NCBI GenBank assembly: GCA_902799705.1
Contig: CADCBP010000014.1
Location: 24,057-88,056, forward strand
DNA: 64,000 nucleotides
Reading direction: 5' to 3'
DNA from: an uncultured Bacteroidales bacterium
Lineage (GTDB): Bacteria > Bacteroidota > Bacteroidia > Bacteroidales > Paludibacteraceae
In this document: piece by piece, positions 10,292-52,122 of the stretch
Layout: every line of letters begins with the position of its first letter
How positions within the stretch are numbered: the first letter of the stretch is position 1
Notes under the pieces: generated by a model
The model's database searches: none
What the model was told of the DNA's origin: nothing
Seen by the model: the letters and a program-made list of their open reading frames with translations, nothing else
Position numbers and translations under genes: made by a program

Positions 10292-10303
10292 TTAATTATT
10301 TTT

Positions 10304-10327
10304 TCATTTGCTCATTTTCTCATTTGA
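10304..10327. repeat. 8-bp TCATTTGC tandem array (3 units)
   Basis: TCATTTGC, TCATTTTC and TCATTTGA at the junction between the large pectinesterase-like gene and the AspT-like transporter. The stop codon of the former lies in the last units. Confidence 0.65.
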
Positions 10328-13109
10328 GCTCCGCACCGAGGGCGTTGTATTCACGCCCGTCGCGAACGATGATGATCTGTCCGTTGCGAATAACCTTGAC
10401 GGTCTTCACAGCCTCAGCAGCGGTATTTTCCACTCCCTGCGGGTCAGTGCCTGCCGGCAAGCCGAAACCACCACGTCCGTTCGCTTTGCGGATGGTATAG
10501 GTGATACCGTTGTACAAAGCTACCTTGTCATTGAACTCACCACCTTTGAAGAGGATGGGTTTTTCTCCCTCAGCCTCAGCCATGTAAATAGCGTCCGGTT
10601 CGAAGTCCTCCGCTTTCTCCTCGCACACAGCCTGCTGTGCATCGTTCTGCGCGTCAGCCGCCCAAGCTCCAAGCGTGTAGTCGATAGTATAGGTAGCTGC
10701 TTCGTCTGCCGTGAGGATGGTCTCCATCTGCTTTTCATCGTTATTGAGCACGAAGGTTACGTTGTTCGACGCCGGAGAAACGACTTGTCCTGCGGCATTC
10801 ACGGAGTTGTACTCACCGAACTTTTCAGGCAGAATATTCATACCTCCGCAAGTCCAGCGCTGGATCTTGTCTTTCTGAGCGTTGGCGTCTTTAGTCATCA
10901 CGAGGTCGTCTGCCAACAGAGTATTGAGGAATATTGTCTTCGGCTTATTGTTCCAAGAGCGCCCGAGACTTACTACCGGCTTGGTGCCCGCGATATTATC
11001 TGCATAACGAACCGAACAACTCTCGAAAACATAACCTTTATCGCTATCGGCGGAGTTACTTGCCGTCAATGCATCCTGACCTCCACCATTCGTTGAGCGT
11101 TGCTCGCATATGAGTTCGGTATTCTTAAAATATACACTTCCATCGCCGCAGATGAAATCTACGGTGCCGTGGATCTTGCTCGTCTCGAAGTACTTCAGTG
11201 CACCTTGTAGATTGCTGTAATAAGTGTCTTGGTACGAAAGCAGACATACGTTCTTGCAAATCGTCTTAGTACCTTTGTCTTGAAGAACAACAGCTACGCC
11301 ATCATTGTTTTTGTAGTAATCAAACGTATTTTGCAAAGTCAAATCCTGTAAATACGTATTTGTCACATTCTTCTCAATCAACAGAGTAGCAGTAGCACCA
11401 ATTCCCGGAGTGAGGGCTTTATTCTTAATGATCACTCCCTCCATAGACTGACCGATAATAGAGATATTATTCTTCGTAATAGGCGTCAGAACGGTCTCTC
11501 CTAAATCATAGGTGCCATTCGGCAGGAATATCTTATCGCCGCTCTCGGCTTGAACCAGCGCCAGTAGGAAGCAAGCCGCATCTCCAGCCGGAACGATGAA
11601 ATAACCCGTAGCCTCATCTTTCTCAAGGAAATCCAATACATTATATACAACAATCTTGTGGATATACTGCTTGGCTGTCCAACTCAGTGTCAGCGTTGTT
11701 GCCTCGCCTGTATATTTGTACGAATACTCTGTTCCGTCCGGTGTAGCACCCTCCGAGCCGTTCTTTACTACAGTAGTGCGTCCGATCTCGGTCTCACCAT
11801 TCTTCAAAATCACGTCTCCACTCTCCGAATAGGTGCAAAGCGTCACATTCACAATCGCATTGCCTGCTACTTGAATATCAATGCTTCCGTCTGCGTTGAA
11901 ATACCACCCGTGCGTTGGGTCATGGAACGAACCGCCGTTTGCTGTTACAGTCTCATGATCCTCGGGATAGAAGATCGAGTTGGTGAAGTTATACGTCTGT
12001 ACGCTTCCAATAGTTGCAGTCTCGATCGGGGTTACTTTCGCCTGAATCGTCGTGTTGCCGGTAATCACATCTCCTACGACGGCTTTCTTGCCGCTGGTAT
12101 AATACCAGCCGCGGAACACATTGCCTTCTGCGATAGCCGGCAGGTCTTCCATGTCGTAAGGCAGAACAGTCAGACTGGCACCCTCATACGTCTCCATTCG
12201 ACCTAACTCCGTTCCATTCTGGTCCTTGAAAATTACATTACAAGGAGTAATATCTGTTGCCTCAGCAAAAAAATAGGGAAGGAACGTCTGCGAACCCAAC
12301 TCAAACGTCAGCGTTGCGGCATCGCCCGTATAAACGTACAGCACGTTCTGCGCAAAATTACCTGCCTTCTCGCCGCAAACAGCCTTGTTGCTGATGGTGG
12401 CGAAATCCGCTCCGTCTTTCTTGATAGTGATGTCCGTGTTGCTATATTGACATGCACCAAGGGTGAATTTCACCGGTCCATCAACCGGAACGGTGATTGT
12501 ACCGCCCTGCACGCCATGCTGACCGCCGTTGTACGTTGTTCCCTCTACGCTCACACCCTGAGGCAGTTCACCGCCTTCCGGCAGAAGCACCTTATAAGGA
12601 TTCTCGCGGAACTCTATTTGGAAGTCCGTAAACGTACGTGCAACGTCCTCCACGAACTGGATCTTCTGGAGTACACCTTCTCCTGTACCTGACGGACGAT
12701 TGATATAGATATTCGTCTGTTCTGCCGTCAGCTCAATAATCTCCGTACGGTATTCACCATTATTTGTCGTCTCTTTAATAAGCGTTTCAGCTGTGGGTGT
12801 TTCACCTGCCCAAGTTGATACTCCTAACTTAAGGGAACTGCCTGCTTTACGTGGACCGAAAGTCAATTTCAATTTGCCGGCAACTGCCGCTTTTGTAAAA
12901 TAAGCGTAGCCGCTACTATTCATCTTCACGCCGTTGAGACCTAAATTTGTACTCGGGGCGTCATTGACATACCCGCCGTAATACAGACCACGATCCGGCG
13001 ATTTAGTTGGAATTTTAGCCTCTGTGTAATCCCACAGCAGGTCATTTGATCCTGCCCAGATTGCCATACTCGTTAAAGCGGCAATCATAAAAAGAATTGT
13101 CTTTCTCAT
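10320..13109 (-). CDS. Secreted multidomain pectin methylesterase-like protein (CE8)
   Basis: 929-residue secreted enzyme predicted to remove methyl esters from pectin. Order: signal peptide (1-19); a beta-rich module beginning NDLLWDYTEAK (about 20-155) also found in the next gene; two further beta-rich, possibly carbohydrate-binding modules (about 160-490); then a right-handed beta-helix pectinesterase domain (about 500-780). Catalytic motifs are kept: QDTYY (Asp628), GTVDFICG (Asp651), LGRSW (Arg717). The tail NGQIIIVRDGREYNALG resembles the short type IX-type C-terminal signal common in Bacteroidales. It overlaps the upstream paralogue by 4 nt. Polygalacturonan is the expected substrate; no pectate lyase is nearby. 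Confidence 0.9.
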   Translation of the reverse strand: MRKTILFMIAALTSMAIWAGSNDLLWDYTEAKIPTKSPDRGLYYGGYVNDAPSTNLGLNGVKMNSSGYAYFTKAAVAGKLKLTFGPRKAGSSLKLGVSTWAGETPTAETLIKETTNNGEYRTEIIELTAEQTNIYINRPSGTGEGVLQKIQFVEDVARTFTDFQIEFRENPYKVLLPEGGELPQGVSVEGTTYNGGQHGVQGGTITVPVDGPVKFTLGACQYSNTDITIKKDGADFATISNKAVCGEKAGNFAQNVLYVYTGDAATLTFELGSQTFLPYFFAEATDITPCNVIFKDQNGTELGRMETYEGASLTVLPYDMEDLPAIAEGNVFRGWYYTSGKKAVVGDVITGNTTIQAKVTPIETATIGSVQTYNFTNSIFYPEDHETVTANGGSFHDPTHGWYFNADGSIDIQVAGNAIVNVTLCTYSESGDVILKNGETEIGRTTVVKNGSEGATPDGTEYSYKYTGEATTLTLSWTAKQYIHKIVVYNVLDFLEKDEATGYFIVPAGDAACFLLALVQAESGDKIFLPNGTYDLGETVLTPITKNNISIIGQSMEGVIIKNKALTPGIGATATLLIEKNVTNTYLQDLTLQNTFDYYKNNDGVAVVLQDKGTKTICKNVCLLSYQDTYYSNLQGALKYFETSKIHGTVDFICGDGSVYFKNTELICEQRSTNGGGQDALTASNSADSDKGYVFESCSVRYADNIAGTKPVVSLGRSWNNKPKTIFLNTLLADDLVMTKDANAQKDKIQRWTCGGMNILPEKFGEYNSVNAAGQVVSPASNNVTFVLNNDEKQMETILTADEAATYTIDYTLGAWAADAQNDAQQAVCEEKAEDFEPDAIYMAEAEGEKPILFKGGEFNDKVALYNGITYTIRKANGRGGFGLPAGTDPQGVENTAAEAVKTVKVIRNGQIIIVRDGREYNALGAELK

Positions 13110-23616: not shown

Positions 23617-24106
23617 CTTCTTCCCACGAATAGTCTTTTTCCTCAACCGTAGAGGGTAAATAGCCCATCGTCTCTTTCGCTTTCTCCTGTGGGAACGTGA
23701 AGTACGTGCAGGTACATTCGCAGAGCAATTCTCCGTCAGCGGAAAAGAGTTCTCCTTTTACGATAGCTACATTCCGGCGCATCTCCACGAGAGATCCGCG
23801 CAGTTTGATGTAGTCCTGCAGCGTGGAGACGGGTTTATGATAGCGCATCTCCATCTTCGCCGTGACGCCGGCAGTCTTGAGGAGATGGAAGACCACCCAT
23901 CCGCATACTTCGTCCAAGAGTACTGCCTGCACTCCGCCATGAAGGGTGTTGAGCCACGACTGATGGTTCTGCGTCGGCCGCCAAATGGAAATGATATCAT
24001 CCCCGTCTTCGAAGAAACGCATCTGCGTTCCTATCGGATTGTCCGGACTACAGCCAAAACAGTTATATCCGGGCGTATGTATCCAAGGATTGATAATTCG
24101 TTTCAT
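23567..24106 (-). CDS. Hotdog-fold acyl-CoA thioesterase, PaaI-like
   Basis: 179 residues with the PaaI-type motif LHGGVQAVLLDEVCGW, then AGVTAKMEMRYHKPV, typical of single-domain hotdog thioesterases that hydrolyse acyl-CoA. An N-terminal CFGCSPDNPIG segment fits the same family. It starts 4 nt inside the PP2C gene (ATGA overlap), so it is probably co-expressed with the kinase/AAA+ module, although a shared function is not obvious. Its last 50 nt are antisense to the O-methyltransferase gene. Confidence 0.88.
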   Translation of the reverse strand: MKRIINPWIHTPGYNCFGCSPDNPIGTQMRFFEDGDDIISIWRPTQNHQSWLNTLHGGVQAVLLDEVCGWVVFHLLKTAGVTAKMEMRYHKPVSTLQDYIKLRGSLVEMRRNVAIVKGELFSADGELLCECTCTYFTFPQEKAKETMGYLPSTVEEKDYSWEEAISLFSSTLVRRVKGG

Positions 24107-24882
24107 GCTCTATCCGTAACTGTAAGCCAGATAGCGGAGATATTGTCTTTTCCTCCCGCCACTTTGGCTGCATCTACCAAATGTTCCACCAGATCCTTCT
24201 CGGACCAGTTGTTTTGCATCGCTTCATCAATCACGGCATCTATCTGCTCGTCTGTCAGCATATCCGTTATACCGTCGGAGCAAATCAGATAATGGTCGTC
24301 CGACAAGATGCGGTCCGTCACGTCCGCCACGTCCGCAAACACGGTCTCACCCGCGCCAAGCGAGTTATAGATGAGATTCGACTGCTGACTCTGGTCTCCT
24401 GTCAGGTTGCGCATCGAATGGTCCTCGCTAATCTGCTTGAGAATACCGTTACGATGGCGATACAAACGGCTGTCTCCGATATTGATGCTAAACACGCGAC
24501 CGTCGTAAGAGAACAGACCTACAAACGTAGTACCCATCCCCCGAAATTGCGGCAACTCAACACCTTTTCTGTTGATCAACTCATGTGCACGTTGTGCCCA
24601 TTCTTTGGTCGCAGCCACTATCTTGTCGGACAATAACTCATCGGGGAGACTGTTGAGAAACTCATCAAACGACTCAACCGCCAACTGGCTGGCAAACTCA
24701 CCTCCTTCATGACCTCCCATGCCATCCGCCACGATAGCCGCAAAGCGGGTAAAGTTATGCATAAAGAACGAGCCGTCACGCGATTCGTCCTGACAGAACT
24801 CTCGATTGAGGAGTATCGTGTCCTCGTTGTTCGTCCGAACGCATCCTACGTCCGAACGCAAAGCGTACGAAATCGTAATCAT
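24103..24882 (-). CDS. PP2C-family Ser/Thr protein phosphatase
   Basis: 259 residues of the metal-dependent PPM/PP2C family. Motifs: SDVGCVRTNNEDT with the metal-binding Asp and Glu, VADGMGGHEGGEFAS, INIGDSRLYRHR, DHYLICSDGITDML and GGKDNISAIWL. It should remove phosphate from Ser/Thr. It overlaps the FHA gene by 4 nt and shares the operon with the Ser/Thr kinase, so it is the probable eraser for that kinase. No membrane segment, so it acts in the cytoplasm. Confidence 0.95.
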   Translation of the reverse strand: MITISYALRSDVGCVRTNNEDTILLNREFCQDESRDGSFFMHNFTRFAAIVADGMGGHEGGEFASQLAVESFDEFLNSLPDELLSDKIVAATKEWAQRAHELINRKGVELPQFRGMGTTFVGLFSYDGRVFSINIGDSRLYRHRNGILKQISEDHSMRNLTGDQSQQSNLIYNSLGAGETVFADVADVTDRILSDDHYLICSDGITDMLTDEQIDAVIDEAMQNNWSEKDLVEHLVDAAKVAGGKDNISAIWLTVTDRA

Positions 24883-25559
24883 GGATCTACTGTGAATTCA
24901 ACGGTTGAAAATCGTATCTTATCGCCTATATGGATAGGCTGAGCCACATTAACCGGTATCTGTTGACCGTTGAGGAACGTGCCGTTAGTCGAACCGATAT
25001 CGGTTACGGTCCATTCATTACCGGCATAGTCAATACGCGCGTGCTGACCGGACACATCGCCGAACACACCGAAGACCGAAGGATAATGGCCTCTACGACC
25101 GATGATCACACCAGCTGCCAGACCCAAACGGATTCCGTACATCGGACAAACAAGGTGACCCGGTTGTAATCCGAACGAGCTCGCAGCTCCCGGACGAACG
25201 GTCTTGTCTGCACCACCTGCAGGAGTCTGCTGCGGTTGCTGCGGAGCCGGTTTCGGCTGTTGAGGAGTAACTTGCGGCTGTTGTGCAGGTTGTGGCGTCT
25301 GCTGCGGAGCAGACTGAGGTTGCTGAGCCGGTTGCGGTTGTTGCGGCTGTTGACCTGCCGCAGGAGTTTGAGGCTGCGGGTTAGGTTTGCCCTTGAACTC
25401 ACTGGCCTTGATCAATTCCGCGCCGCATTGTGTACAACGACGACCTCTGCCGAACACTTGACAGGAAGGGCAGATATACAATTCCGTACCACATTGGTCG
25501 CAGAAATAACTATCGCTTTCAATGTCACATTTGCATTTGGGGCATTTAACTAAATTCAT
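24879..25559 (-). CDS. FHA-domain protein with two zinc ribbons and a TVRP threonine motif
   Basis: 226 residues. Two N-terminal zinc ribbons (C6, C9, C20, C23 and C30, C33, C42, C45), a Pro/Gln-rich linker (about 59-113), the motif DKTVRP (118-123), and a C-terminal FHA domain (about 150-223) with IIGRR, SGQH (Ser170, His173) and STNGTFLNG (Asn192), the phosphothreonine-binding residues. The DKTVRP motif matches the repeats at the kinase N-terminus. Position just before the FHA domain recalls GarA and OdhI, where a phosphorylated N-terminal threonine binds the protein's own FHA domain. Likely the phospho-reader of this module. Confidence 0.92.
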   Translation of the reverse strand: MNLVKCPKCKCDIESDSYFCDQCGTELYICPSCQVFGRGRRCTQCGAELIKASEFKGKPNPQPQTPAAGQQPQQPQPAQQPQSAPQQTPQPAQQPQVTPQQPKPAPQQPQQTPAGGADKTVRPGAASSFGLQPGHLVCPMYGIRLGLAAGVIIGRRGHYPSVFGVFGDVSGQHARIDYAGNEWTVTDIGSTNGTFLNGQQIPVNVAQPIHIGDKIRFSTVEFTVDP

Positions 25560-25590: not shown

Positions 25591-28500
25591 TTACATATCC
25601 TCTTCCTCGAACGTATTGAGTTCTTCCTGTGTTGCCGTATCGTCCAGCAACTTCGGCTCCAAACGACCGCCTTGGCGTTGTTTGACATCCGTGAAGTAGT
25701 TGTTCACAACGCGGGCGTTACCGAAATGACGGTCACGTTTGGCAAACAGGTCGATAAAGTGCTGCTCCATCTTCTTGTCTGCCTCAGGAGTCAAGACATA
25801 GCCGGCCTTCTTGGCCTTCATGCGGAAGATCTCTGCCAGTTGCTCGCCGGTATAGTCCTCAAACGTGATAGACTTGTTGAAACGGGAAGTCAAACCGGAG
25901 TTGGACTCAACCCAAATCTTCATCTCGTGCGTATAACCGGCTGCAATACAAATGAACTTGCCTTTGTAGTCCAGCAATAACGGCAACAAGGTGTTGATAG
26001 CCTCCTGACCGAAATCGCCTTTGCCTCCTTCGCTCAAAGCATAAGCCTCGTCGATAAACAACACGCCGCCCAAAGCGCTCTTGACCACTTTTGCCGTTTG
26101 AGGAGCCGTATGACCGACATAGCCGATCACCAAGTCCTTACGGGTCACTTCAACCAGCTTATTGGTCGGCAGCAAGCCTAAGGAGAAGAAGATATCCGCC
26201 ATGATACGAGCGACCGTCGTCTTACCCGTTCCCGGATTACCGAGGAACAGATAGTGGTCGAGGTCCATCTTGAAGTTACGTCCCATCAACTTGGCACGTT
26301 TCTGCTCTACCATGATCGTACGTGCCAGACCGCGCACCTCGTTCTTTACATTATCCAAACCGATCAAGTCGTCCAATTGCTTCATGCACTCCGAGATATC
26401 AATCTGCTTCGGTTTCTCGTACGGGATATCCGAGGCCTCAAAGGTATTACACAGTTCCTGCGTGATCTCTTCCGTAGGTATCGCGGAGATACGTTTCGCC
26501 TGATGGCGCTTGATGGACTCATATAGCTTAACCATCTCGCGGGCATTACCGAATTTCTCGTCGCGCTTGTCATACATCTGACGAATAAGCATCGTAAGCA
26601 GTTCGTCCGCCTCCGGCGTGAATACTTTCTTCTTCTTTTTAGCCATCGAAACCAAGATCTGCTTGAGCTGTTCCGGTGTATAATCTTCGATATGCATTCG
26701 ATCGGTAAAACGACTGCTGAAACCCGGATTCGCATCTTGCAGGAATTGCTCTATCTCCTTACGGTAGCCGGCAATAACGACTACGAACTTACCGCGGTCG
26801 TTTTCCATACGCGTCATGAGCGCATCTACGGCCTCCGATCCTGTCGTGTCGCTCGAACCGCCGCCTCCTGCGCTTGACGGCAACAAGGTATAGGCCTCGT
26901 CAATAAAGAGAATACCGCCCATCGCATCTTCACACGCTTTGTTCATCACCTTGGCGCTCTCGTTCACATAAGACGATACCAGCGATTTACGCTCGCGCTC
27001 AACAACTTTGTCCGTCGGTAGCAGACCGATAGCCTTGAAGATACGGCCTAACATTCTTGCCACAGTCGTCTTACCTGTTCCGGGATTACCGGTCAGCACA
27101 ATATGTACCGGCGTCAGCTCTGCTTGCGCAAAGCCCAACTCTGCCATACGTTTGTCGTTCTGCGTCTTAAGCGCTATCTCACGGATCTTCTCCTTCACTT
27201 CCTCCATGCCGACCAACTCGTCCAGTTCAGCCAGCAACTCATCAACCGTCTTGTCCGCCATAGCCTCCGCGCCTTCTATATCTTCGCGCGTGATCACATG
27301 CTCCATGCCATCTACGAACGTACCATTCTCCTTGGCTTCCTGGATACGGTCACCTTGGTTCTTAAGCGCATTCTCAAAGGCTTTGCGTACCTCACGGGCA
27401 TTGGCGAAGTTACGCGTACGGGAGTTATACATCTTACGGAAGAAGTTATCTACCTGTTGCTCTGCCTCCTCGTCCAAGGTCAGTTTCTTGCCCTTCACCA
27501 TGCGACGGAAGATCTCTGCCAACTCTTCTGCCGTATAATCGCGGAAGTCAATCGTCTTCGAGAAACGCGACTCCAGACCGGAGTTGGACGCGATAAAGTC
27601 CGCCATCTCCTTGTTGTATCCTGCGGCAATAACGACGAACTGTCCGCGACGGTCTTCCATCAACTTAAGCAAGGTATCGATAGCCTCTTGACCGAAACTG
27701 TCTCCTTCGCCCTGCTTGAGCGAGTATGCTTCGTCCACAAACAGGATACCGCCCATCGCCTTATTGACGCAATCCATTACCTTCGGCGCCGTATGACCTA
27801 CATACGAACCTACCAAGTCACCACGACTCACTTCTACCAACTGACCGATCGGCAGCACCTCCAGCGAACTCAGTACGTCCGCTAACAGACGAGCCATCGT
27901 CGTCTTACCCGTTCCCGGATTACCAAGGAAAAGGAAGTGATCCGTTATCTCTCGCTTGACATTTGCCCCGTCACGCAAAGCATCCATCTCCAGTTTGTTG
28001 ACAATCTGACGTACCGCATCTTTGATATTCTCCACGCCCACATACTTGTCAAACTCAGCCATCGCCTCTTCCGTCGTCTTGCGTCTGTACTCGGGACCTT
28101 GGATATCTGCCTCGGTAGCCACCAACGTATTCCTGTCACGACGAACGGCAAACTCACTTATCTCAAGCGCCTTGTCTTTAGCGATATGCGCCGACATCGA
28201 TACACCCGGATGGTCTCGGTAGTACTGTTTGTAAACTCTGTCCAGTTTATCCTTTGCAGCCGGCTCTAATGTCAAACCGTATTCGTTCTTCAGCATCATT
28301 TCCGTCATGTCGAGAATCTGCTCAGCCGAATAAGGTTGCAAATGGAACTGGTAGCGGAACAGCGAAGCAATAGTCGGGTTGTTCTGTACGAACTTACCTA
28401 AGCCCGTCTCTGTTCCCATCAAGATAACAATCGGATTGCCGTCCCATTTCTTGATACCGTTGAACAGCACATCCAGATCCGTCACATTACGTACCTCGTC

Positions 28501-28923
28501 GTCCGGAAGCAATTTCTGCACGTTCTCGATACATAAGATACCGTCACGCGCCGCCATGATATTGTTGTCAAAATCGTCTGCGAAGCCGGCAAATTCCGAC
28601 GCATCAATTACCTTCGGCGTAGGTTTGGAGATAATCTTGTTCTCGTAGAACAAATCTTGTATCACTCGCAACAAAGTCGATTTACCCATGCCGGCATCAC
28701 CCAAAATAAGCATGTTATGGCGTTTCACTTGCTGGCCGTTCATTCGTTGGCGGGACATAAGCGCTTCATACGTATCCAAAATATCACGCAGTTGTTGCTT
28801 GATTTCCGCCATGCCGATAAGGGAATGCAGTTGTTTCTGAGCCTTATCTACGAGTTTCTCACCACACCACTTGCAGTAGTTGGCTTCTTCTCGGTTGTCT
28901 TTGTTACATTTTTTGCATCTCAT
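25591..28923 (-). CDS. Zinc-ribbon AAA+ ATPase with four tandem AAA modules (CbbX/SpoVK-like)
   Basis: 1110 residues. N-terminal zinc ribbon (C3, C6, C17, C20), then four AAA modules with Walker A motifs at residues 75-82 (GDAGMGKS), 334-341, 612-619 and 894-901 (each GNPGTGKT). Modules 2-4 resemble CbbX/SpoVK ATPases, with DEAY Walker B motifs and GNAR or NAR sensor-2 regions. Module 1 is divergent: its Walker B reads ILCIENV, lacking the usual Asp-Glu pair. CbbX-type proteins remodel client proteins as rings; a chain carrying four modules is unusual. It sits 31 nt before the FHA gene and 15 nt after the kinase gene, indicating a common complex. Confidence 0.9.
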   Translation of the reverse strand: MRCKKCNKDNREEANYCKWCGEKLVDKAQKQLHSLIGMAEIKQQLRDILDTYEALMSRQRMNGQQVKRHNMLILGDAGMGKSTLLRVIQDLFYENKIISKPTPKVIDASEFAGFADDFDNNIMAARDGILCIENVQKLLPDDEVRNVTDLDVLFNGIKKWDGNPIVILMGTETGLGKFVQNNPTIASLFRYQFHLQPYSAEQILDMTEMMLKNEYGLTLEPAAKDKLDRVYKQYYRDHPGVSMSAHIAKDKALEISEFAVRRDRNTLVATEADIQGPEYRRKTTEEAMAEFDKYVGVENIKDAVRQIVNKLEMDALRDGANVKREITDHFLFLGNPGTGKTTMARLLADVLSSLEVLPIGQLVEVSRGDLVGSYVGHTAPKVMDCVNKAMGGILFVDEAYSLKQGEGDSFGQEAIDTLLKLMEDRRGQFVVIAAGYNKEMADFIASNSGLESRFSKTIDFRDYTAEELAEIFRRMVKGKKLTLDEEAEQQVDNFFRKMYNSRTRNFANAREVRKAFENALKNQGDRIQEAKENGTFVDGMEHVITREDIEGAEAMADKTVDELLAELDELVGMEEVKEKIREIALKTQNDKRMAELGFAQAELTPVHIVLTGNPGTGKTTVARMLGRIFKAIGLLPTDKVVERERKSLVSSYVNESAKVMNKACEDAMGGILFIDEAYTLLPSSAGGGGSSDTTGSEAVDALMTRMENDRGKFVVVIAGYRKEIEQFLQDANPGFSSRFTDRMHIEDYTPEQLKQILVSMAKKKKKVFTPEADELLTMLIRQMYDKRDEKFGNAREMVKLYESIKRHQAKRISAIPTEEITQELCNTFEASDIPYEKPKQIDISECMKQLDDLIGLDNVKNEVRGLARTIMVEQKRAKLMGRNFKMDLDHYLFLGNPGTGKTTVARIMADIFFSLGLLPTNKLVEVTRKDLVIGYVGHTAPQTAKVVKSALGGVLFIDEAYALSEGGKGDFGQEAINTLLPLLLDYKGKFICIAAGYTHEMKIWVESNSGLTSRFNKSITFEDYTGEQLAEIFRMKAKKAGYVLTPEADKKMEQHFIDLFAKRDRHFGNARVVNNYFTDVKQRQGGRLEPKLLDDTATQEELNTFEEEDM

Positions 28924-28938
28924 AACTTATACGGCTTC

Positions 28939-31900
28939 TTAGGAGTGAATATTAAATTTCTTTTTGAAGATCTCGATCCATAATTCCCAGGTTGATTTGC
29001 CTTCAAACTCAGCCGCGGCTTGTTTCTCCGCTTCTGTAATCTCACGGGAATACTCAAACTCTACCTTGGCGCCGGATTTGCTGTTGTAATACGTACCCTT
29101 CATCGCCGAATAGGTTTCGTCCGTGAAGGTACAGTTATATGTTCCGTCCAAGACGTTGTTCTTCACTTGATCACGCAGGAACATCGTCTTTTTCTCCGTA
29201 TTGATAGAACCGGCTACTTTCTCGTTTGTTACATGCTTGAAGCGTACATGAATAATGCCTTCTACATTATCCGCTGAAGCGGACGTGATATCCAGCAACG
29301 AAGTCTTGCCGTTGAAATAGCCCTTCCACGTCCCTACCATGTGCGGGATATGCGAGGAAGTGATGGACTGTTGTGCCATCAGACGCGGCGTTAAAGCAAC
29401 CATCAACGCAAACAGACCGGCTGTTATAACCATCGTCGGGATTGCCCACCATAGTAACTTCTTCAGATTCGCGCTAAGCGTGTTCTCATAAGCTTTAGCC
29501 TCATCGATAATAGGCGAATCAAACGTACCGGATGTCGGATGGAAAGTATAGTGAAGCGGTTGGGCAAGGATATCGTCCAAACGCGAACCATCCGTAAAGG
29601 CATTCATATCGCTATGATTTAGAGGCAGGTCAATATAGCACTTCTTAAGAATAAGCCATCCGACTACTACCAGAATAAGCGCGATAGCATAAGGCGCTAC
29701 CGGCACAAGGAACGCCATCAGCAGATACAAAAGCCAATAAAGGAAAGCGGCTACAATCCACGAGCAGATGACCTCTCCGATCAGTTTGCCGTCCAAGCCC
29801 GTCATGATACACATCGGGATAAACAAGATAAAGGTAGTCACTTCGGTAAAGCCCCAGAAATGGCCCTTCATAATGTTGCCCTCAAACGGGAAGCCAAGTA
29901 CACAAAGCACAACTACCAAAGTCGCTAACGGCACAAAGCATAGTAATGCCAGCAATATACGAACCGCTACCATAGCACCATATTGACGTTTGGCGCCGTT
30001 GATCGCGCCTTGTACTTGCGAGGTGGCATACTGATATCGGCCTACCTCCGGCAGATCATCGTCCAGCGAAGCCAGGAACTGCATATACTGGTCCGTCTTC
30101 TTTTCAAACGCAAACTGGCGCGACAAATCGAGTTTGTTATCCTCTTGATAGAAAACCGTCAACCACTCTTTCAGACCGCGTTTATCCGATAATTCCGTCT
30201 TCAGTTCAGAACGGGACAGTTTCTTTGCATCCTGAGGTTTGTTCAGTATTTTGCCCGAAGCCGTACGGTAGAACGGCTCTACGCCCATACCCTGAATACA
30301 TTTGTACGTCGCAACTTTCTCGTTATAAGGAGCCGGTTTCTTGCGGTTGTCCTTCGAGTTGATATCAAAGCAATACTCGATAAAGTCGATCCAACTGTCA
30401 TACGTTCCTTTGGACTTGAGGTAGAAATAGAGTACCGTGCCTTTGATGGAACGAACGTAATTGTAAATATCATTCAGTCGGCTTTGCTCTGCAGCTGAGT
30501 ACTCATTAGGGTTGAACGTGGCATCTATCGCTTTATTGAGTGCCTCTCCGATGTGCTGATACGTGTACATCGTGTTTTGATCCCAACCTAACTGGAAGTT
30601 CACACTTCGGCTACAACAGAACAGCACGCCCCACGACGAAGCACCTGCCGTCATCTTCCATCCGTCAAACACGGTGCGGATACGAGCCGCTACGTTCTTG
30701 TCGCGATACTCAATCCATTTGATGAACGCCGGACGACGGATATCCCGCCACGTATCATCCGTAACGCTGTTCTCGCGGGCTGCATCAATCACATCTTTGA
30801 GTGTGTTACAATCTATCTGTTTGCCTGTTCGGGTTTCATAGACGAACGGCTGATTCGGATCCAGAGTATAAACGAGTTCTACTACAGCGTCGCGCAAGTC
30901 TTCCGGCTTGGCATTCGGCACACTCATCTTCTTATACAGATTACCTGCATACTGGTCCAGACCTTGCATCCGCAGCAATACATACAGCAGGTCACTACCG
31001 TTCTTCAGATTCTTTACGTAAGCGGCTCTGTTATGCAAGATAGCCGACGCTATCTCCTGTTGTGTCGTGCAAGGATTGCCTTTGACGTCATAATAAGGCA
31101 TCGCCGGATCAAGTACGTAACATGCGGCATAGACACCGGCCTGCTTGTCCGTCGCGTACTTGTTCTCTACGATCTCTTCGATCTCCACCTCCAACTCCGG
31201 ACGAAGATTCTCCTTCAACCATTGGTTGATCTTACCGCTATAGAGGTATTTCTGCGCTAATGCCTGATCTTTGTACATCAGTTCCGCCAACTCTTCCGGA
31301 GAATTGGCAATCTGATTCTTACCGGCATTATAGATCACATGGAAGGTCGATTTCTTCTCTTCCTTTGCCGGCACAAATGATGCAAACGGATCACCTCCGC
31401 TGGCCCATTCTTTGATTTGTTGGAACGTAGGACGAATCGCATAATCCACAGCCGTCAGAGCTTTAATAAGACTCAGCGTATGTCCTTTCAGGTTGTCCGG
31501 ATAAGGCAGTTTACCAATCTGTTTCCAGCGCATCAACTCTGCCTCTTTCTGACGGAAAGCACTCTCGCCCATCCACAGACACAACAACGCGATACCTAAC
31601 GAATAGAAGTCGCTACTCTTGGTCAGCTCGCGCGCCTGCCCGGGTACACTATAATAAAACTCGGGCGCCGCGTACGTGGGCGTGCGCGCTTCTTTCGCTT
31701 TGTCACCCGGTTGAATGCGAACAAGACCGTCCTTGTCAAAACGGGACGAGATTCCGAAATCGGTCAGTACCAGACGTGTCTTTCCCTTATCCACAAACAG
31801 GAAGTTAGCCGGTTTGACATCGCAATGCAAGAAGCCTTTCTCATGGCACGTGTGGATACAAAGCGCCATCATCACAGCCAGTTTCTTTAACTGCAACTCA

Positions 31901-32490
31901 TCGCCTTGGATATCATAGGACGCCAGACTGCCGCCTTCGCAATATTGCATCAACTCATAAGCTACAGTCTCATTCGTATTGGGATTCGTCCAATTGCCGA
32001 AACTGTACAATCCTACCAGACCCGCCTTACCATCCGTGGACTTGACGGCCTTCAAAATCTCCGTATCGGCCAAACTCAAGCCCGGATAGTACAGCTTAAG
32101 TACAAACTGCTTGCCTCCGTGCTCTACCAGCAACAGGTTACCTTCACCCGTTCCTTCGGACAGCACTTTGACGAACTTGTACTTCTTCCCGTCAATAACG
32201 TACTCTTTCTCATACGTCCTGTTCAATTGGTCAATTGCCTGTTGGGCGGTACGTACCGTTTTATCGCCTACCCCGCCTCCGGGCATCTGAGGACGAATGG
32301 TCTTCGACACATCGCCGCTACCTACGCCCTGCGGACGAATCGTCTTCTCCGTGTCGCCGTTACCAATGCTCGTAGGACGAATAGTCGCATCGCCGTTAAC
32401 AGTTCCGGAATTCGTCGGACGAATGGTCTTGTCGCCATTATCTCCGCTACCTCCTAAAAAGTCGCTTGGTCTGATTGTTTTATCTGCCAT
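28939..32490 (-). CDS. Transmembrane Ser/Thr protein kinase with N-terminal TIRP repeats and periplasmic C-terminal domain
   Basis: 1183 residues. An N-terminal low-complexity region carries six motifs (DKTIRP, DKTIRP, DATIRP, EKTIRP, SKTIRP, DKTVRT; threonines 5, 22, 37, 50, 64, 79). A protein kinase domain follows (about 104-395): glycine loop EGTGEG, Lys132, HCDVKPAN (222-229), DFG (244-246), APEF. HCD replaces HRD. A long region of unknown fold (about 400-870) is followed by about five membrane helices and a periplasmic beta-rich, lipocalin-like domain starting VGTWKGYFNGK. I chose the ATG at 32488-32490, which begins MADKTIRP. Its neighbours suggest it writes the marks read by the FHA protein. 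Confidence 0.9.
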   Translation of the reverse strand: MADKTIRPSDFLGGSGDNGDKTIRPTNSGTVNGDATIRPTSIGNGDTEKTIRPQGVGSGDVSKTIRPQMPGGGVGDKTVRTAQQAIDQLNRTYEKEYVIDGKKYKFVKVLSEGTGEGNLLLVEHGGKQFVLKLYYPGLSLADTEILKAVKSTDGKAGLVGLYSFGNWTNPNTNETVAYELMQYCEGGSLASYDIQGDELQLKKLAVMMALCIHTCHEKGFLHCDVKPANFLFVDKGKTRLVLTDFGISSRFDKDGLVRIQPGDKAKEARTPTYAAPEFYYSVPGQARELTKSSDFYSLGIALLCLWMGESAFRQKEAELMRWKQIGKLPYPDNLKGHTLSLIKALTAVDYAIRPTFQQIKEWASGGDPFASFVPAKEEKKSTFHVIYNAGKNQIANSPEELAELMYKDQALAQKYLYSGKINQWLKENLRPELEVEIEEIVENKYATDKQAGVYAACYVLDPAMPYYDVKGNPCTTQQEIASAILHNRAAYVKNLKNGSDLLYVLLRMQGLDQYAGNLYKKMSVPNAKPEDLRDAVVELVYTLDPNQPFVYETRTGKQIDCNTLKDVIDAARENSVTDDTWRDIRRPAFIKWIEYRDKNVAARIRTVFDGWKMTAGASSWGVLFCCSRSVNFQLGWDQNTMYTYQHIGEALNKAIDATFNPNEYSAAEQSRLNDIYNYVRSIKGTVLYFYLKSKGTYDSWIDFIEYCFDINSKDNRKKPAPYNEKVATYKCIQGMGVEPFYRTASGKILNKPQDAKKLSRSELKTELSDKRGLKEWLTVFYQEDNKLDLSRQFAFEKKTDQYMQFLASLDDDLPEVGRYQYATSQVQGAINGAKRQYGAMVAVRILLALLCFVPLATLVVVLCVLGFPFEGNIMKGHFWGFTEVTTFILFIPMCIMTGLDGKLIGEVICSWIVAAFLYWLLYLLMAFLVPVAPYAIALILVVVGWLILKKCYIDLPLNHSDMNAFTDGSRLDDILAQPLHYTFHPTSGTFDSPIIDEAKAYENTLSANLKKLLWWAIPTMVITAGLFALMVALTPRLMAQQSITSSHIPHMVGTWKGYFNGKTSLLDITSASADNVEGIIHVRFKHVTNEKVAGSINTEKKTMFLRDQVKNNVLDGTYNCTFTDETYSAMKGTYYNSKSGAKVEFEYSREITEAEKQAAAEFEGKSTWELWIEIFKKKFNIHS

Positions 32491-32519: not shown

Positions 32520-33467
32520 TTAATCGTTCACTTCCCATTTTTTGGTAGTGATCACCTCATTTATCTCCACATTTTCATACACCCATACGCCGCCGTGCCA
32601 TGGTTCTGCGCACTCCGAAGGCTCATGATGGTGACAACCGCAGTAGTTACAGATCCACTCTACCGGTTTCTGTACCACTTCCCGATGCCGCGTCACAGTA
32701 ATAACCGGCAACTTGCGTGCGCAGTAGTAGTTACGTTGCATCTGCGGCGTCGTTCCTGCATCCGGAGCCATGTCCTCCATGATTCCGTTCATCTCAACTA
32801 CGTTCTGCTTGTACTCCTGTACAATCTCACGCATCTGCTCAATCTTGATATTCCACTTCGGACGTTTTGGCGCCTCCGGCTGTGGTGTTTCCGGCTTCGG
32901 AGTATCCTTCTTCTCTTCCGGTTGAGGAGTCTCAGCAACACCGTTCTGAATCATCGCCAGCAATTCCTCGTATTCGGATACCAATGCCTGGTCTTCAGCA
33001 CTCAGCTCTACTTCCTCTACGCCTTCCTCCTCGGCTAATGCCGCACTCTCCAGAATCTGACGCTCCAGCTCCACCATTCGTTGCTGGAGTTCGCACATGC
33101 GTTTGAATTTCGGATCCGTTTTAGCCTCGGCAATAGCCTGTTGAGCCATGTGGTCCAACGGATGATTGCACTTGCGGCAGAAAGAACGGAAGTTCAGCGT
33201 ACCGCACTCAGGACATACGATTCCTTCACGTGAGTTACCGCACTCCGGACAGAAACGGTCGGACGGATCCATCGGAGAACCGCAGAACGTACAGATATTC
33301 GGATTCGTCGGCTTTCCGCAATGAGGACAAATCTCGGCGGTTAACGTGATAGGAGCTCCGCAATGAAAGCAGTTCTTTCCGGGCGTCGTCTTTGTGGGAC
33401 GATATTGGCGATACTGCTGTTGTTGCTTTTGTTGCTCTTGTTGTAGAGATTGAGGATCTTGTGCCAT
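32520..33467 (-). CDS. Multi-zinc-ribbon protein of unknown function
   Basis: 315 residues. After a Gln-rich N-terminus come three zinc ribbons in a row (C33, C36, C47, C50; C59, C62, C73, C76; C85, C88, C97, C100), a coiled-coil region (about 120-175), a Pro/Glu/Lys-rich linker, a second helical part, and a C-terminal cluster (C273, C276, C278, H279-H281, C286) that could bind another metal. No enzyme motif is seen. It is 29 nt upstream of the kinase and probably belongs to the same complex, as an adaptor or scaffold. I do not recognise it as a named family beyond the ribbons. Confidence 0.85.
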   Translation of the reverse strand: MAQDPQSLQQEQQKQQQQYRQYRPTKTTPGKNCFHCGAPITLTAEICPHCGKPTNPNICTFCGSPMDPSDRFCPECGNSREGIVCPECGTLNFRSFCRKCNHPLDHMAQQAIAEAKTDPKFKRMCELQQRMVELERQILESAALAEEEGVEEVELSAEDQALVSEYEELLAMIQNGVAETPQPEEKKDTPKPETPQPEAPKRPKWNIKIEQMREIVQEYKQNVVEMNGIMEDMAPDAGTTPQMQRNYYCARKLPVITVTRHREVVQKPVEWICNYCGCHHHEPSECAEPWHGGVWVYENVEINEVITTKKWEVND

Positions 33468-33488: not shown

Positions 33489-34721
33489 TTACTGTAAACA
33501 ATTGTCAAGCGCTTGGGTGATCGCTTTCTTATCCAGATGTTGACCGATAAACACCAGTTTCTGCATACGATCTCCATATTGCTCGTCCCAGTCTTTGCGC
33601 AGTTGGGGATCGTCCGCCATGAGTTGCATCAGCTCCTCTTTTGGCATGGTAGCAAACCACTCGCCGGCTTTGCGGAGATTGAACTGCCGTCCGGCCTGCT
33701 CGAAGAGATAACACATGTCGTATTCTTCAGCAAAATAACACATTCCTTTGCAGCGCAATACATTCTTTGGCCAATGAGCCGCAACGAACTCGTCGAAGAG
33801 TCCGAGGTCGAACGGTTTGCGCGCGTAATATACATAGGTGTCAATGCCGAATTCCGCAAGGTGGTCATGTCCTTCGTGATCATGGTCATGATGATGGTGA
33901 TGATGTTCATGCTCATCATGATCGTGTTCATGCTCATCCTCGTCATCATCGTCGTCATCGTCATCATCATGATGATCGTGATGGCGGGCATCCTCTACTT
34001 CCTGAATCCAGGTAGCGGAAGTAGCCGTGCGGTCAAAGTCAAAGAGGTGGGTATTGAGCAGCTTGTCCAGATCGACGTCACAGTAGTTCGTCTCGATGAT
34101 CTCCGCCTTCGGCTGGATAGCCCGGATGATGGATTTGATATGTTCCAACTCCTCGGGGGCCACTTCAGCAGCCTTGTTGAGCAGGATGATGTTACAGAAC
34201 TCTATCTGCTCGATGACCAACGCCTCAAGGTCCTCTTCTTTGGGCACATAATGCGCCAAAGCATCGCCCCCATTGAACTCATCCCTCAGACGCAGCGCGT
34301 CCACCACGGCGCAGATACAGTCGAGAACCGGCAGTCCGTCTTGGGCAAACTGCGGCACCATCTGTGCATAACTGCAGAGCGTCTGGGCGATCGGAGCCGG
34401 TTCGCAAATACCGGAAGCCTCGATGACGATGTAGTCATAGGCTTTTTGTGCGGCGAGGTCGTGCAGTTGCGAAACAAGGTCCATCTTCAGAGAGCAACAT
34501 ATACAACCGTTCTGTAGGGCAACGAGGCTGTCATCGTTTTGGCTGACTACCCCGCCCTGCTGGATCAGCGAAGCATCGATGTTCACTTCTCCTATATCAT
34601 TGACTATCACCGCAAAACGGATACCTTTCGTATTCGTCAGAATGCGGTTTAAAAGTGTGGTTTTGCCACTCCCGAGATAACCCGTGAGCAGCAAAACCGG
34701 TATTTTGTTAATTGTTAACAT
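33489..34721 (-). CDS. CobW/ZNG1-family GTPase with His/Asp-rich metal-binding stretch
   Basis: 410 residues of the COG0523 G3E GTPases: Walker A GYLGSGKTT (from residue 14), the metal-site motif GCICCS (CICC at 73-76), EASG (101-104), and a C-terminal CobW_C domain. Between them (about 245-290) is a stretch almost wholly His, Asp and Glu, typical of zinc-handling members. Such GTPases insert or deliver metal to client proteins; eukaryotic ZNG1 supplies zinc. The next three genes encode zinc ribbons, which are plausible clients. Its start overlaps the end of the GT117 gene by 14 nt. Confidence 0.92.
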   Translation of the reverse strand: MLTINKIPVLLLTGYLGSGKTTLLNRILTNTKGIRFAVIVNDIGEVNIDASLIQQGGVVSQNDDSLVALQNGCICCSLKMDLVSQLHDLAAQKAYDYIVIEASGICEPAPIAQTLCSYAQMVPQFAQDGLPVLDCICAVVDALRLRDEFNGGDALAHYVPKEEDLEALVIEQIEFCNIILLNKAAEVAPEELEHIKSIIRAIQPKAEIIETNYCDVDLDKLLNTHLFDFDRTATSATWIQEVEDARHHDHHDDDDDDDDDEDEHEHDHDEHEHHHHHHDHDHEGHDHLAEFGIDTYVYYARKPFDLGLFDEFVAAHWPKNVLRCKGMCYFAEEYDMCYLFEQAGRQFNLRKAGEWFATMPKEELMQLMADDPQLRKDWDEQYGDRMQKLVFIGQHLDKKAITQALDNCLQ

Positions 34722-49643: not shown

Positions 49644-50894
49644 ATGGAACGAAAAACAATATATTTATGTTTGGCTCACATGTCCGAAGAAGGACTGGAG
49701 CAGAAATACATCAAAGAGGCGTTTGACACCAACTGGGTAGTGCCTCTGGGACCGAATGTGAATGGGTTTGAGAAAGACCTCGAGGAATTTGTCGGCGAGA
49801 ACAAGCACGTAGTAGCACTCTCGGCCGGCACAGCCGCGGTTCACCTGGCGCTCATCGGCTGCGGTATCGGACCGGGCGATGAGGTATGTGTGCAGAGTTT
49901 CACCTTCTGCGCCAGCTCCCACCCTGTCAAGTACCTCGGCGCCACGCCGGTCTTTATTGACTCCGAACCGGATACCTGGAACATGGACCCGCAGCTGCTG
50001 GAGCAAGCTATCCTGGACCGCAAAGCCAAAACCGGCAAATACCCGAAAGCCATCATTCCTGTTGCCCTGTACGGTATGCCGTACCGCATCGACGAGATCA
50101 TGGCTATCGGAAACAAATACGGTATCCCCGTCATCGAAGATGCTGCCGAAGGATTTGGTAGCCGGTACAAAGGCCGGGTACTCGGTACGTTCGGCCAATA
50201 CGGTGTGCTCTCGTTCAACGGTAATAAGATGATCACCACGTCCGGCGGCGGTGCGCTCATCTGCGAGAACGAGGAGCAGAAGGACAAGATCATGTGGTAC
50301 GCGACGCAGGCACGCGAGGCCTATCCGTACTACCAGCATGAAGAGGTGGGTTATAACTACCGCATGTCGAATATCTGTGCTGGTATAGGTCGCGGTCAGA
50401 TGTCCATCGTTAACGATCATATTCATCATCACCAACATGTGCAGGCACGCTATGCCGAGTTGCTCAAAGACATTCCGGGTATTCATTTGCATGAAGCGCC
50501 AAATGCTGATTTTGACGCGAACTATTGGCTCTGTACCATAACCATTGATCCGAAAGTACGCATCAAGGGACAAGAGAATGCCTACAAAGAGATTATAAAA
50601 TCTGCTGTGGGCGGAGCGGCCGGAGTCATTCATCAAGTGGATTCGCCAACTACCGACTGCCAGCCGAATGATAACGTAGAAGCCTTGCGCCTCTTTATGC
50701 TCGAGCGGAAGGTGGAAGCGCGCCCGGTATGGAAACCCATGCACAAACAACCGGTGTATGCCGGCTGCCCGGCGTATGTCAACGGCGTGAGCGAAGCGCT
50801 CTTCAAAGTAGGTATGTGTTTGCCGGCCGGTCCAATGGTTAGTGACGAGGATCTGGAATATATTGTGCAATGTATCAAAGAAGCTATTTGTTAA
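49644..50894 (+). CDS. DegT/DnrJ/EryC1/StrS family aminotransferase
   Basis: 416 residues, PLP-dependent sugar aminotransferase. Features: WVVPLGPNVNGFE, ALSAGTAAVHLAL (phosphate binding), Asp166 in VIEDAAEGFGSRY, and the PLP lysine in FNGNKMITTSGGG (Lys195). It adds an amino group to a keto-sugar nucleotide, as in PglE or PseC. No matching 4,6-dehydratase is seen in the window, so the substrate is made elsewhere. It follows the initiating transferase by 2 nt; such pairs often make a bacillosamine-type first sugar. Confidence 0.93.
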   Translation: MERKTIYLCLAHMSEEGLEQKYIKEAFDTNWVVPLGPNVNGFEKDLEEFVGENKHVVALSAGTAAVHLALIGCGIGPGDEVCVQSFTFCASSHPVKYLGATPVFIDSEPDTWNMDPQLLEQAILDRKAKTGKYPKAIIPVALYGMPYRIDEIMAIGNKYGIPVIEDAAEGFGSRYKGRVLGTFGQYGVLSFNGNKMITTSGGGALICENEEQKDKIMWYATQAREAYPYYQHEEVGYNYRMSNICAGIGRGQMSIVNDHIHHHQHVQARYAELLKDIPGIHLHEAPNADFDANYWLCTITIDPKVRIKGQENAYKEIIKSAVGGAAGVIHQVDSPTTDCQPNDNVEALRLFMLERKVEARPVWKPMHKQPVYAGCPAYVNGVSEALFKVGMCLPAGPMVSDEDLEYIVQCIKEAIC

Positions 50895-50895
50895 C

Positions 50896-52122
50896 ATGGA
50901 ACGGGAATTTATATTAGTCAACATCATCGGTTTCGATAAACCAGGCGTAACATCGGCGGTGACGGAAGTGTTGGGTAAGTACGGCGCATTTGTCCAGGAT
51001 ATCGGACAGTCGAACTTGCATCACCAACTCAACCTCAGCATTCTCATCCGTGTCGATGACCCGTCCAAAAGCGGGGACATGATCAAAGAGGTACTGTTCT
51101 GCTGCTCGCGCCTCGAGATGATTGTTCGCTTCACGCCGCTAAGCGAAGAGGAATACGCCGCGTGGGTCGGCCGTCAGGACCAGGACCGCTATGTTGTGAC
51201 TTTACTGGCGCGGGAGATCAACGCTCTTCATATTGCCCGCGTCACGGCATTGCTGTCATCCAGACAACTGAACATTGATAATATTTTGCGTCTGAGCGAG
51301 CGTCCTGACGTGCAGATTCCCATCGACAAACGGCATAGTTGCATTGAGTTCTCGCTGCGGGGTTTCCTGCCCGACCGGGAAGCCCTGCAACGCGAGTTGT
51401 TGGAGGTGTCCCGCGAAGAAGGCATTGATATCTCTTTCCAGCGAGATGACATGTTCCGCCGGAACAGGCGTCTTATCTGCGTGGACATGGACTCCACCTT
51501 TATCCAGACGGAGGTCATTGACGAGCTGGCGATGCGCGCCGGAGTGGGTGACGAGGTCAAAGCCATCACCCTCTCGGCTATGCGTGGAGAGATTGATTTC
51601 AAAGAGAGCTTCACCCGCCGCGTAGCCCTGCTCAAAGGGCTGGACGCATCGGTGCGCCAGGACATCATTGACAAACTTCCCATTACCGAAGGGGCGGATC
51701 GTCTTTTCAGCGTGCTCAAGAAATGCGGCTTTAAGATCGCCATTCTCTCCGGTGGATTCATGTTCGTAGGCAAGTACCTCCAAGAGCGGTTCGGTGTCGA
51801 TTACCTCTATGCGAACGAACTGGAGATAGAAGACGGCAAGTTCACGGGCCGCTATGTGGGCGACATTGTCGATGCGCGCCGCAAGGCCGAACTGCTCGAA
51901 CTCATCGCACAGGTAGAACACATCGACTTGGCGCAAGTCATTGCCGTAGGAGACGGTGCCAATGACCTCAACATGCTCGGCAAAGCCGGACTTGGCATCG
52001 CCTTCCACGCTAAACCCAAAGTAAAAGAGAGTGCACAACAGGCCATCTCTACTGTGGGCCTCGACGGCATTCTGTATTTCCTCGGATTCAAAGATTCATT
52101 CCTCAAAGAAACACACGAATAA
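50896..52122 (+). CDS. serB: Phosphoserine phosphatase with two N-terminal ACT domains
   Basis: 408 residues. Two ACT domains (about 1-85 and 98-180) followed by a HAD phosphatase: CVDMDSTFIQTEVIDELA with the nucleophile Asp197 and Asp199, FSVLKKCGFKIAILSGGF and VGDGANDLNML. It makes serine in the last step of the phosphorylated pathway, and the ACT domains suggest feedback by an amino acid. I chose the ATG at 50896, one base after the aminotransferase stop. From this point the operon holds housekeeping genes. Confidence 0.96.
   Translation: MEREFILVNIIGFDKPGVTSAVTEVLGKYGAFVQDIGQSNLHHQLNLSILIRVDDPSKSGDMIKEVLFCCSRLEMIVRFTPLSEEEYAAWVGRQDQDRYVVTLLAREINALHIARVTALLSSRQLNIDNILRLSERPDVQIPIDKRHSCIEFSLRGFLPDREALQRELLEVSREEGIDISFQRDDMFRRNRRLICVDMDSTFIQTEVIDELAMRAGVGDEVKAITLSAMRGEIDFKESFTRRVALLKGLDASVRQDIIDKLPITEGADRLFSVLKKCGFKIAILSGGFMFVGKYLQERFGVDYLYANELEIEDGKFTGRYVGDIVDARRKAELLELIAQVEHIDLAQVIAVGDGANDLNMLGKAGLGIAFHAKPKVKESAQQAISTVGLDGILYFLGFKDSFLKETHE

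Follow-up and report, generated by a model that had tools for sequence, protein, structure and literature searches.

Predicted phosphothreonine docking sites arrayed on a Bacteroidales kinase and echoed in the FHA protein of the same operon

Introduction

In an uncultured, gut-type Bacteroidales bacterium, the N terminus of a Ser/Thr kinase carries a series of short threonine-containing motifs, and one further copy is found in an FHA protein encoded in the same operon. This arrangement raises the question of whether the kinase recruits the FHA protein through its own phosphorylated threonines and of what role the copy in the FHA protein itself would have. A first-pass annotation had proposed that the kinase phosphorylates itself at several sites in order to recruit FHA proteins and that the FHA protein can lock itself. 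We examined these proposals in a window of 64,000 nucleotides, which is the whole stretch of DNA that was analysed, and in related loci from other genomes. On the strength of sequence comparison, the kinase tail is probably an array of phospho-docking sites for the FHA protein of its operon.

The operon and its products

The operon consists of five minus-strand genes arranged head to tail and encoding a zinc-ribbon protein, the kinase, a triple AAA ATPase, a zinc-ribbon/FHA protein and a PP2C-type phosphatase (Table 1). The gene order was kept in relatives with complete loci, and the locus of L084 was without the zinc-ribbon and PP2C genes.

Table 1. Coordinates in the window of the operon genes and motif copies
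Feature	Position	Strand	Basis
Zinc-ribbon protein, first in conserved gene order	32520..33467	-	Pfam DZR 6.1e-11; synteny
Ser/Thr kinase gene	28939..32490	-	Pfam Pkinase 1.2e-25
Kinase motif 1, DKTIRP (T5)	32467..32484	-	Read from translation
Kinase motif 2, DKTIRP (T22)	32416..32433	-	Read from translation
Kinase motif 3, DATIRP (T36)	32374..32391	-	Read from translation
Kinase motif 4, EKTIRP (T50)	32332..32349	-	Read from translation
Kinase motif 5, SKTIRP (T64)	32290..32307	-	Read from translation
Kinase motif 6, DKTVRT (T78)	32248..32265	-	Read from translation
Three-AAA-domain protein, SpoVK/EccA/CbbX type	25591..28923	-	Pfam AAA, 3 stretches
Protein with double zinc ribbon, Pro/Gln-rich linker and FHA domain (226 aa)	24879..25559	-	Pfam FHA 8.8e-15 (residues 152-217), DZR
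Single DKTVRP (T120) in FHA protein	25191..25208	-	Read from translation
PP2C-type phosphatase	24103..24882	-	Pfam PP2C_2 1e-15; overlaps FHA gene by 4 bases

The kinase is laid out as a motif tail (approximately residues 1 to 95), the kinase domain, a long further region, hydrophobic stretches and a C-terminal beta-rich domain (approximately residues 1040 to 1183). The residues that define a Hanks-type kinase (K132, D224, K226, N229 and D244-F-G) were invariant among 12 aligned sequences. Based on hydropathy, the hydrophobic stretches at residues 835 to 1039 were read as about five membrane segments, and the inferred topology would then place the C-terminal domain in the periplasm. An AF2 model of this domain had a mean pLDDT of 75 and eight strands, and a Foldseek search with the model gave weak barrel-like matches (TMq of 0.36 to 0.54 among the 50 matches listed). 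A Pfam search with the same domain (window 28942 to 29373) at a threshold of 0.1 gave no match. The modelled domain may be a periplasmic sensor; because the Foldseek matches were weak, no ligand is proposed for it.

Profile searches against NCBIfam placed the AAA protein over the cut-offs for SpoVK (7.5e-223), EccA (5.9e-193) and CbbX (1.6e-181), with scores summed over domains, while the PP2C protein matched an Stp1-like model below the cut-off (1.5e-47). The kinase had seven matches, all far below cut-off and none named PknG, in a library that may lack a PknG model. In a comparison with the anti-phage systems of PADLOC, the kinase matched mad6 (1.8e-31) and the AAA protein matched IetA (6.6e-29) and mad8 (4.9e-14), and no match was obtained for the FHA, zinc-ribbon and PP2C proteins. 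Against the NCBIfam mad6 model, the kinase reached 48.9 bits compared to a cut-off of 460. A literature search, in which few subscription journals were covered, found no paper with the DKTIRP motif or recognised as dealing with the operon.

A motif array at the kinase N terminus

Translated from its ATG at 32490, the kinase has the N-terminal sequence MADKTIRP, and all six motifs are within the first 81 residues. The first-pass annotation had described six near-identical TIRP-type motifs; these were confirmed, except that the sixth copy ends in T and not P. Its threonine positions were right for residues 5, 22, 50 and 64, but the two given as 37 and 79 were one too high and are residues 36 and 78. 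The resulting Thr-to-Thr spacings are 17, 14, 14, 14 and 14 residues. Six matches to xT[IVT]R were reached in none of 20,000 shuffles of the tail, for which the mean number was 0.21. The same residues are encoded by different codons in the copies of the kinase and FHA genes, and the TIRP copies are therefore no recent DNA repeat. From its composition, the tail is likely to be disordered.

The specificity of the motif was examined in the window's own genome with a DNA pattern for [DE]KT[IV]RP. Five matches were detected, three in the kinase gene, one in the FHA gene and one at window position 51708, whereas a reversed-pattern control gave none. The EKTIRP at 51708 was rejected as a chance match, as it is in a minus frame that is antisense to a longer plus-strand ORF (50842 to 52122), which we take to be SerB-like from its appearance, without a profile search. 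A search of this genome for other clients, in which the tail served as the query, returned the kinase and one fragment (E value of 0.028) that has four stops and was rejected. Other kinases provided a control set of 22 loci, from which 4 without a recognisable kinase ORF were left out; at least two such motifs ahead of the kinase domain were found in 0 of the remaining 18.

The FHA protein of the operon

FHA domains prefer phosphothreonine, and the FHA protein is the candidate reader of the array. It scored 55.3 bits against the Pfam FHA model (cut-off, 20.7), and its domain was the only FHA domain found by a search of its own genome, which is rated 94% complete and gave three matches to Pkinase, of which one is interrupted by a stop. 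A phosphothreonine pocket pattern (S..H followed by S[TS]NG) was present after the Gly-Arg in 30 of 31 FHA proteins, including that of the window; the Gly-Arg itself served to locate the domain and is not part of this count. The exception, L114, has SSWG in place of S[TS]NG, yet the motif is present in both of its proteins. The single DKTVRP that the first-pass annotation had placed ahead of the FHA domain was borne out, with T120 located 34 residues ahead of the Gly-Arg.

Both the profile and the model of the FHA domain matched DgcB, OdhI and GarA. The protein fell short of the NCBIfam OdhI model (23.7 bits; cut-off, 200) and of the TagH-type VI_FHA model of type VI secretion systems (T6SS) (29.7 bits; cut-off, 120.25). 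An AF2 model of the FHA protein, built from four alignment rows, had pLDDT values of <50 over the motif and at residues 154 to 171. As the latter form part of the recognition region, docking was not judged from this model.

Conservation of the motif in related loci

In 26 loci, the kinase tail could be read together with the FHA protein (L056 and L085 are separate contigs from a single genome). Five more loci gave the FHA protein but no intact tail, either because the kinase is broken (L054) or because no kinase was found on the contig (L081, L107, L108 and L115). Between 3 and 7 copies of T[IVT][RK] were present in 14 loci (13 of a first set and L114). Among the first 16 loci, the 14 tails that are not of the TAVA type described below contained 60 copies, all with Thr and none with Ser at the central position and 59 with Arg at +2; one of these tails, that of L080, has no copy. 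Across all 26 tails, the core context [DE][KA][TS][IVTLM] was occupied by Thr in 61 cases and by Ser in 0, and even the looser pattern x-x-[TS]-[IVTLM]-[RKH] had 79 Thr and 2 Ser. The expectation set out in the first-pass annotation, that the number of motifs would vary among orthologues while the motif itself stays, was therefore borne out, with copy number ranging from 3 to 7, Thr kept and Ser absent from all 61 core contexts.

The FHA protein had the motif flavour of its own kinase in 16 of the 26 loci with both genes. Nine of these have the copy N-terminal to the FHA domain (the window, L048, L049, L050, L055, L052, L053, L104 and L114), and in the other seven it forms the last six residues of the protein (L057, L058, L059, L060, L082, L083 and L085). 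Six FHA proteins have no copy (L080, L084, L105, L106, L113 and L116), those of L109, L110 and L111 have an [AT]T[LI]KAP stretch that was not counted as one, and that of L112 has ESTVRV, which is not present in its kinase. A blind search for the best 6-mer shared by the tail and the non-domain part of the FHA protein fell on or overlapped the motif in 15 of 26 loci (13 of 16 and 2 of a further 10). For these 15, between 0 and 224 of 2,000 shuffles gave a match as good, the maximum being for L059. Overall, the matching tags in many relatives suggested a self-contained phospho-docking circuit.

Motif flavours and placement

Differences in flavour provided a further comparison of the two partners. 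In L052 and L053, the kinase tail consists of GTAVAPQ repeats, and the FHA protein has PQGTAVAS just ahead of its domain. For the FHA proteins of this TAVA flavour, the score was 31 with their own tails and no higher than 21 with any of the 12 TIR-type tails. In the other direction the ranges overlapped, as TIR-type FHA proteins scored 24 to 33 with their own tails and 14 to 29 with TAVA tails, and one cross pair of unmatched flavour scored 29, equal to many matched pairs. This overlap on one side of the cross-flavour control slightly lowered our confidence in the docking explanation. The TAVA flavour was seen in two sister genomes with a weak place in the tree (83/71), and in L053 its copies have nearly the same DNA sequence. 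The zinc-ribbon proteins of both L052 and L053 start with TKTAVRT, which looks like a blend of TAVA and TVR.

A third flavour was detected in L104, in which the kinase has GTIINN, its one TII copy, and the FHA protein has GTIIGN. This locus belongs to an eight-row clade (100/96) in which six others are of the TIRP type, and both partners therefore seem to have changed, as judged from this one genome.

The placement of the FHA copy differed between clades, being ahead of the FHA domain in one and at the very C terminus in another. In L081, EKTVKA is ahead of the FHA domain, and this protein falls into a clade of nine rows together with L084 and the seven C-tail loci (98/93; 99/95 in a second tree). 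Within that clade it stands beside L057 and L083 at 87/95 in one tree and is unresolved in the second. From these trees, the side of the FHA domain that bears the motif changed within the clade. The FHA protein of L084, a member of clade II, has no copy.

Clade III (100/100) comprises 12 FHA proteins, each of them from family f2. Nine of its loci have a kinase, and in these the FHA copy is absent from five (L080, L105, L106, L113 and L116), ambiguous in three (L109 to L111) and mismatched in one (L112). The kinase tails of this clade are looser, with 0 to 3 matches to T-[IVTLM]-[RKH] and none in L080 and L111, and several keep Thr copies, such as the five DDKTM of L106. From this pattern, the kinase tail appears more general, with the FHA copy seeming clade specific.

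Two irregular loci were also noted. The kinase gene of L054 is without the tail and much of the catalytic domain, and the position of its FHA protein that aligns to DKTVRP reads EESVKQ. In this locus (L054:4873-7838), the zinc-ribbon gene runs into the activation-loop region of the kinase, and a further frame break follows; this single case could be an assembly fault. In L080, in which the FHA protein is without the motif, the AAA protein (7921-11262, minus strand) has SATVRP at about residue 830 in the linker ahead of the third AAA domain, which may be a chance match or a relocated copy.

Alternative explanations

A shared motif could arise if it were no more than the substrate consensus of the kinase, with the tail and the FHA protein both being substrates and the FHA pocket reading something else, such as the activation loop or the AAA protein. 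Kinase specificity would explain why motif and flavour are shared, and it is consistent with the clade III FHA proteins, which are mostly without the motif yet keep the pocket pattern. Kinases of this kind generally accept Ser as well as Thr, however, and the 0 of 61 Ser in the core context would be left unexplained, as would the presence of up to seven spaced copies. We regard this explanation as improbable. Still less credence was given to the tail being a low-complexity repeat that grows and shrinks without a phospho-related role, for example as a constitutive dock or a solubility tag. The tail is repeat-like and variable in copy number, and the near-identical DNA of the L053 copies fits such an origin, but the TIRP copies vary in their codons and not in their Thr and Arg (as seen in the +2 position in 59 of 60), the array is kept across several families, and a matching FHA copy occurs on either side of the domain.

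The self-lock proposed in the first-pass annotation is compatible with docking. The phosphorylated motif of the FHA protein would fold into the pocket of the same molecule, as in GarA and OdhI, and thereby end the signal. Each FHA protein with a match has one copy in a non-domain stretch beside the domain, with the Thr 24 to 38 residues from the Gly-Arg in the 8 N-side proteins measured. Furthermore, DgcB, OdhI and GarA, which are among the closest FHA structures, each bind their own tail according to the available part of the source (PMC6733907). In the window, a Thr copy is indeed ahead of the FHA domain, but the arrangement did not hold family-wide, as the copy is C-terminal in seven relatives and absent from 5 of the 9 clade III loci. 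The seven C-tail loci, in which the copy forms the last six residues, favour binding in trans. As a general account of the motif, the self-lock is thus a minority possibility, although a better one than the two alternatives above. The termini of an FHA domain lie far from its pocket, and in the seven C-tail loci the last FHA strand begins 14 to 18 residues ahead of the Thr; for these reasons, we lean toward binding in trans in that clade. Where an FHA protein carries its own copy, an OdhI/GarA-type lock in cis (PMC6733907) and a TIFA-type binding in trans (PMC7083832) are both candidates. We read such self-binding, whether in cis or in trans, as a clade-specific addition to docking on the array.

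Comparison with known systems and proposed mechanism

The comparisons that follow draw on those parts of the cited papers that were available. By analogy, the closest precedent for recruitment, which the first-pass annotation did not name, is PknG with GarA/OdhI in Actinobacteria. Autophosphorylated threonines in the disordered N-terminal extension of PknG (T23, T32, T63 and T64 in MtbPknG; T14, T68, T92 and T93 in CgPknG) recruit the FHA protein, and a Thr on the N-terminal side of the FHA domain is phosphorylated next (PMC8546545). The window kinase likewise has a series of Thr in an N-terminal extension that precedes the catalytic domain, and the pair matches the PknG/GarA anatomy without a PknG or OdhI family match over cut-off. 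In contrast to the N-terminal sequence of PknG, which is described as poorly conserved in the text available (PMC8546545), the tail here is a spaced array of a fixed motif that is often shared with the FHA protein. The kinase here also has membrane-like segments, and its operon further encodes zinc-ribbon proteins, a triple AAA ATPase and a PP2C. We read the kinase-FHA pair, by analogy, as an arrayed version of PknG-type docking.

Other systems resembled the operon in part. In T6SS, PpkA in its activated form associates with Fha1 and stimulates Fha1 phosphorylation, and PpkA-Fha1-PppA similarly unites a membrane-associated kinase, an FHA protein and a phosphatase, but none of the proteins encoded in the operon is a T6SS component and no motif array is described in the part of the source available (PMC10482370). 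The juxtamembrane segment of StkP has seven phosphothreonines, and the corresponding phosphorylated segment of PknB is bound by FhaA; S. pneumoniae is reported to have no FHA domains (PMC12077195). The Thr array is likewise beside the catalytic domain, but it is N-terminal, whereas the StkP/PknB segment joins the kinase to a membrane helix and has no repeated motif described in the available text (PMC12077195). TIFA, from metazoan innate immunity, is an FHA protein with a phosphorylated Thr of its own that engages the FHA domain in a second dimer and so leads to oligomers (PMC7083832); the accessible part of that paper describes no kinase array, and trans binding is hypothetical here. The best PDB sequence match over the zinc finger, linker and FHA domain was ArnA (8s05 and 5a8i), an archaeal zinc-finger/FHA protein that binds a phosphorylated partner (PMC6509490). 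That partner, ArnB, is a vWA protein, and no motif common to both is described in the portion available (PMC6509490).

According to the docking model, the kinase would autophosphorylate the threonines of its tail, and the FHA protein of the operon would bind these through its phosphothreonine pocket. With several tail sites and one FHA protein species, several FHA proteins could therefore sit on a single membrane kinase. Where a copy is also present in the FHA protein, the kinase would presumably phosphorylate that copy too, and the phosphorylated FHA proteins could then fill their own or each other's pockets and be released from the kinase or extend on it. Membership in the operon suggests that the PP2C would reset the circuit, and synteny prompts the guess that control of the neighbouring triple AAA ATPase is the likely output. 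The recruitment proposed in the first-pass annotation is supported by comparison, with Thr kept, one FHA domain in the genome and flavours shared.

A bolder extension of the model, which we think unlikely, is a private phospho-code for each operon, in which the array is written by the kinase, the FHA protein, which bears one copy of its own, reads it and polymerises outward in trans so as to gather or gate the AAA ATPase, and coevolution of motif and pocket insulates operons from each other. If the docking model is true, the operon would encode a compact writer-reader-eraser circuit in Bacteroidota with a docking code readable from sequence, and PknG-type docking would extend in arrayed form to another phylum. 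The natural TIRP, TAVA and TII variants would then allow FHA specificity, and the coevolution of kinase and reader, to be tested directly. The circuit would also be a first entry point to a triple-AAA-ATPase operon on which the literature search had found no paper.

Distribution and neighbouring genes

Genomes were searched with the kinase or an FHA-protein profile as the query. Within the family, the kinase query and the FHA-profile query detected the two proteins in the same 7 of 358 genomes. Positive genomes numbered 14 of 221 in family f2; of two other families, one had 4 of 79 and the second 5 of 80, and the order of these two gave 9 of 164 and added none. In a sample across the phylum, 7 of 395 were positive. 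The close relatives are metagenome-assembled and include a sheep-rumen Bacteroidales bacterium (L048), uncultured Bacteroidales RUG11932 (L049) and a roe-deer-rumen Paludibacteraceae bacterium (L050).

The operon was also considered as a mobile element, and this was rejected on GC content and tRNA genes: its GC content of 0.498 was similar to that of the flanks (0.497 and 0.498), and the window has no tRNA. A plasmid search with the kinase gave kinase-domain matches but no record in which one place covered 80% of the query. Two loci on viral contigs were returned by the FHA alignment query and rejected, as L086 had no operon gene that could be found and L087 had one weak match, which Pfam identified as a prohead protease with zinc ribbons.

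The genes flanking the operon in the window are common to the near relative L049, and no such sharing was noticed in the other 13 of the 14 loci listed. Several neighbouring genes were recorded as minor observations. In L084, a 1,605-aa protein that combines a SAM domain and numerous TPR repeats is encoded directly upstream of the reduced operon (L084:356-5170), and in L059 a SUKH/SMI1-KNR4-like gene (L059:7303-8079) is inserted between the zinc-ribbon and kinase genes. The CobW gene adjoining the operon in the window (Pfam cobW, 2.6e-46) encodes a stretch rich in His, Asp and Glu (window 33870 to 33995).
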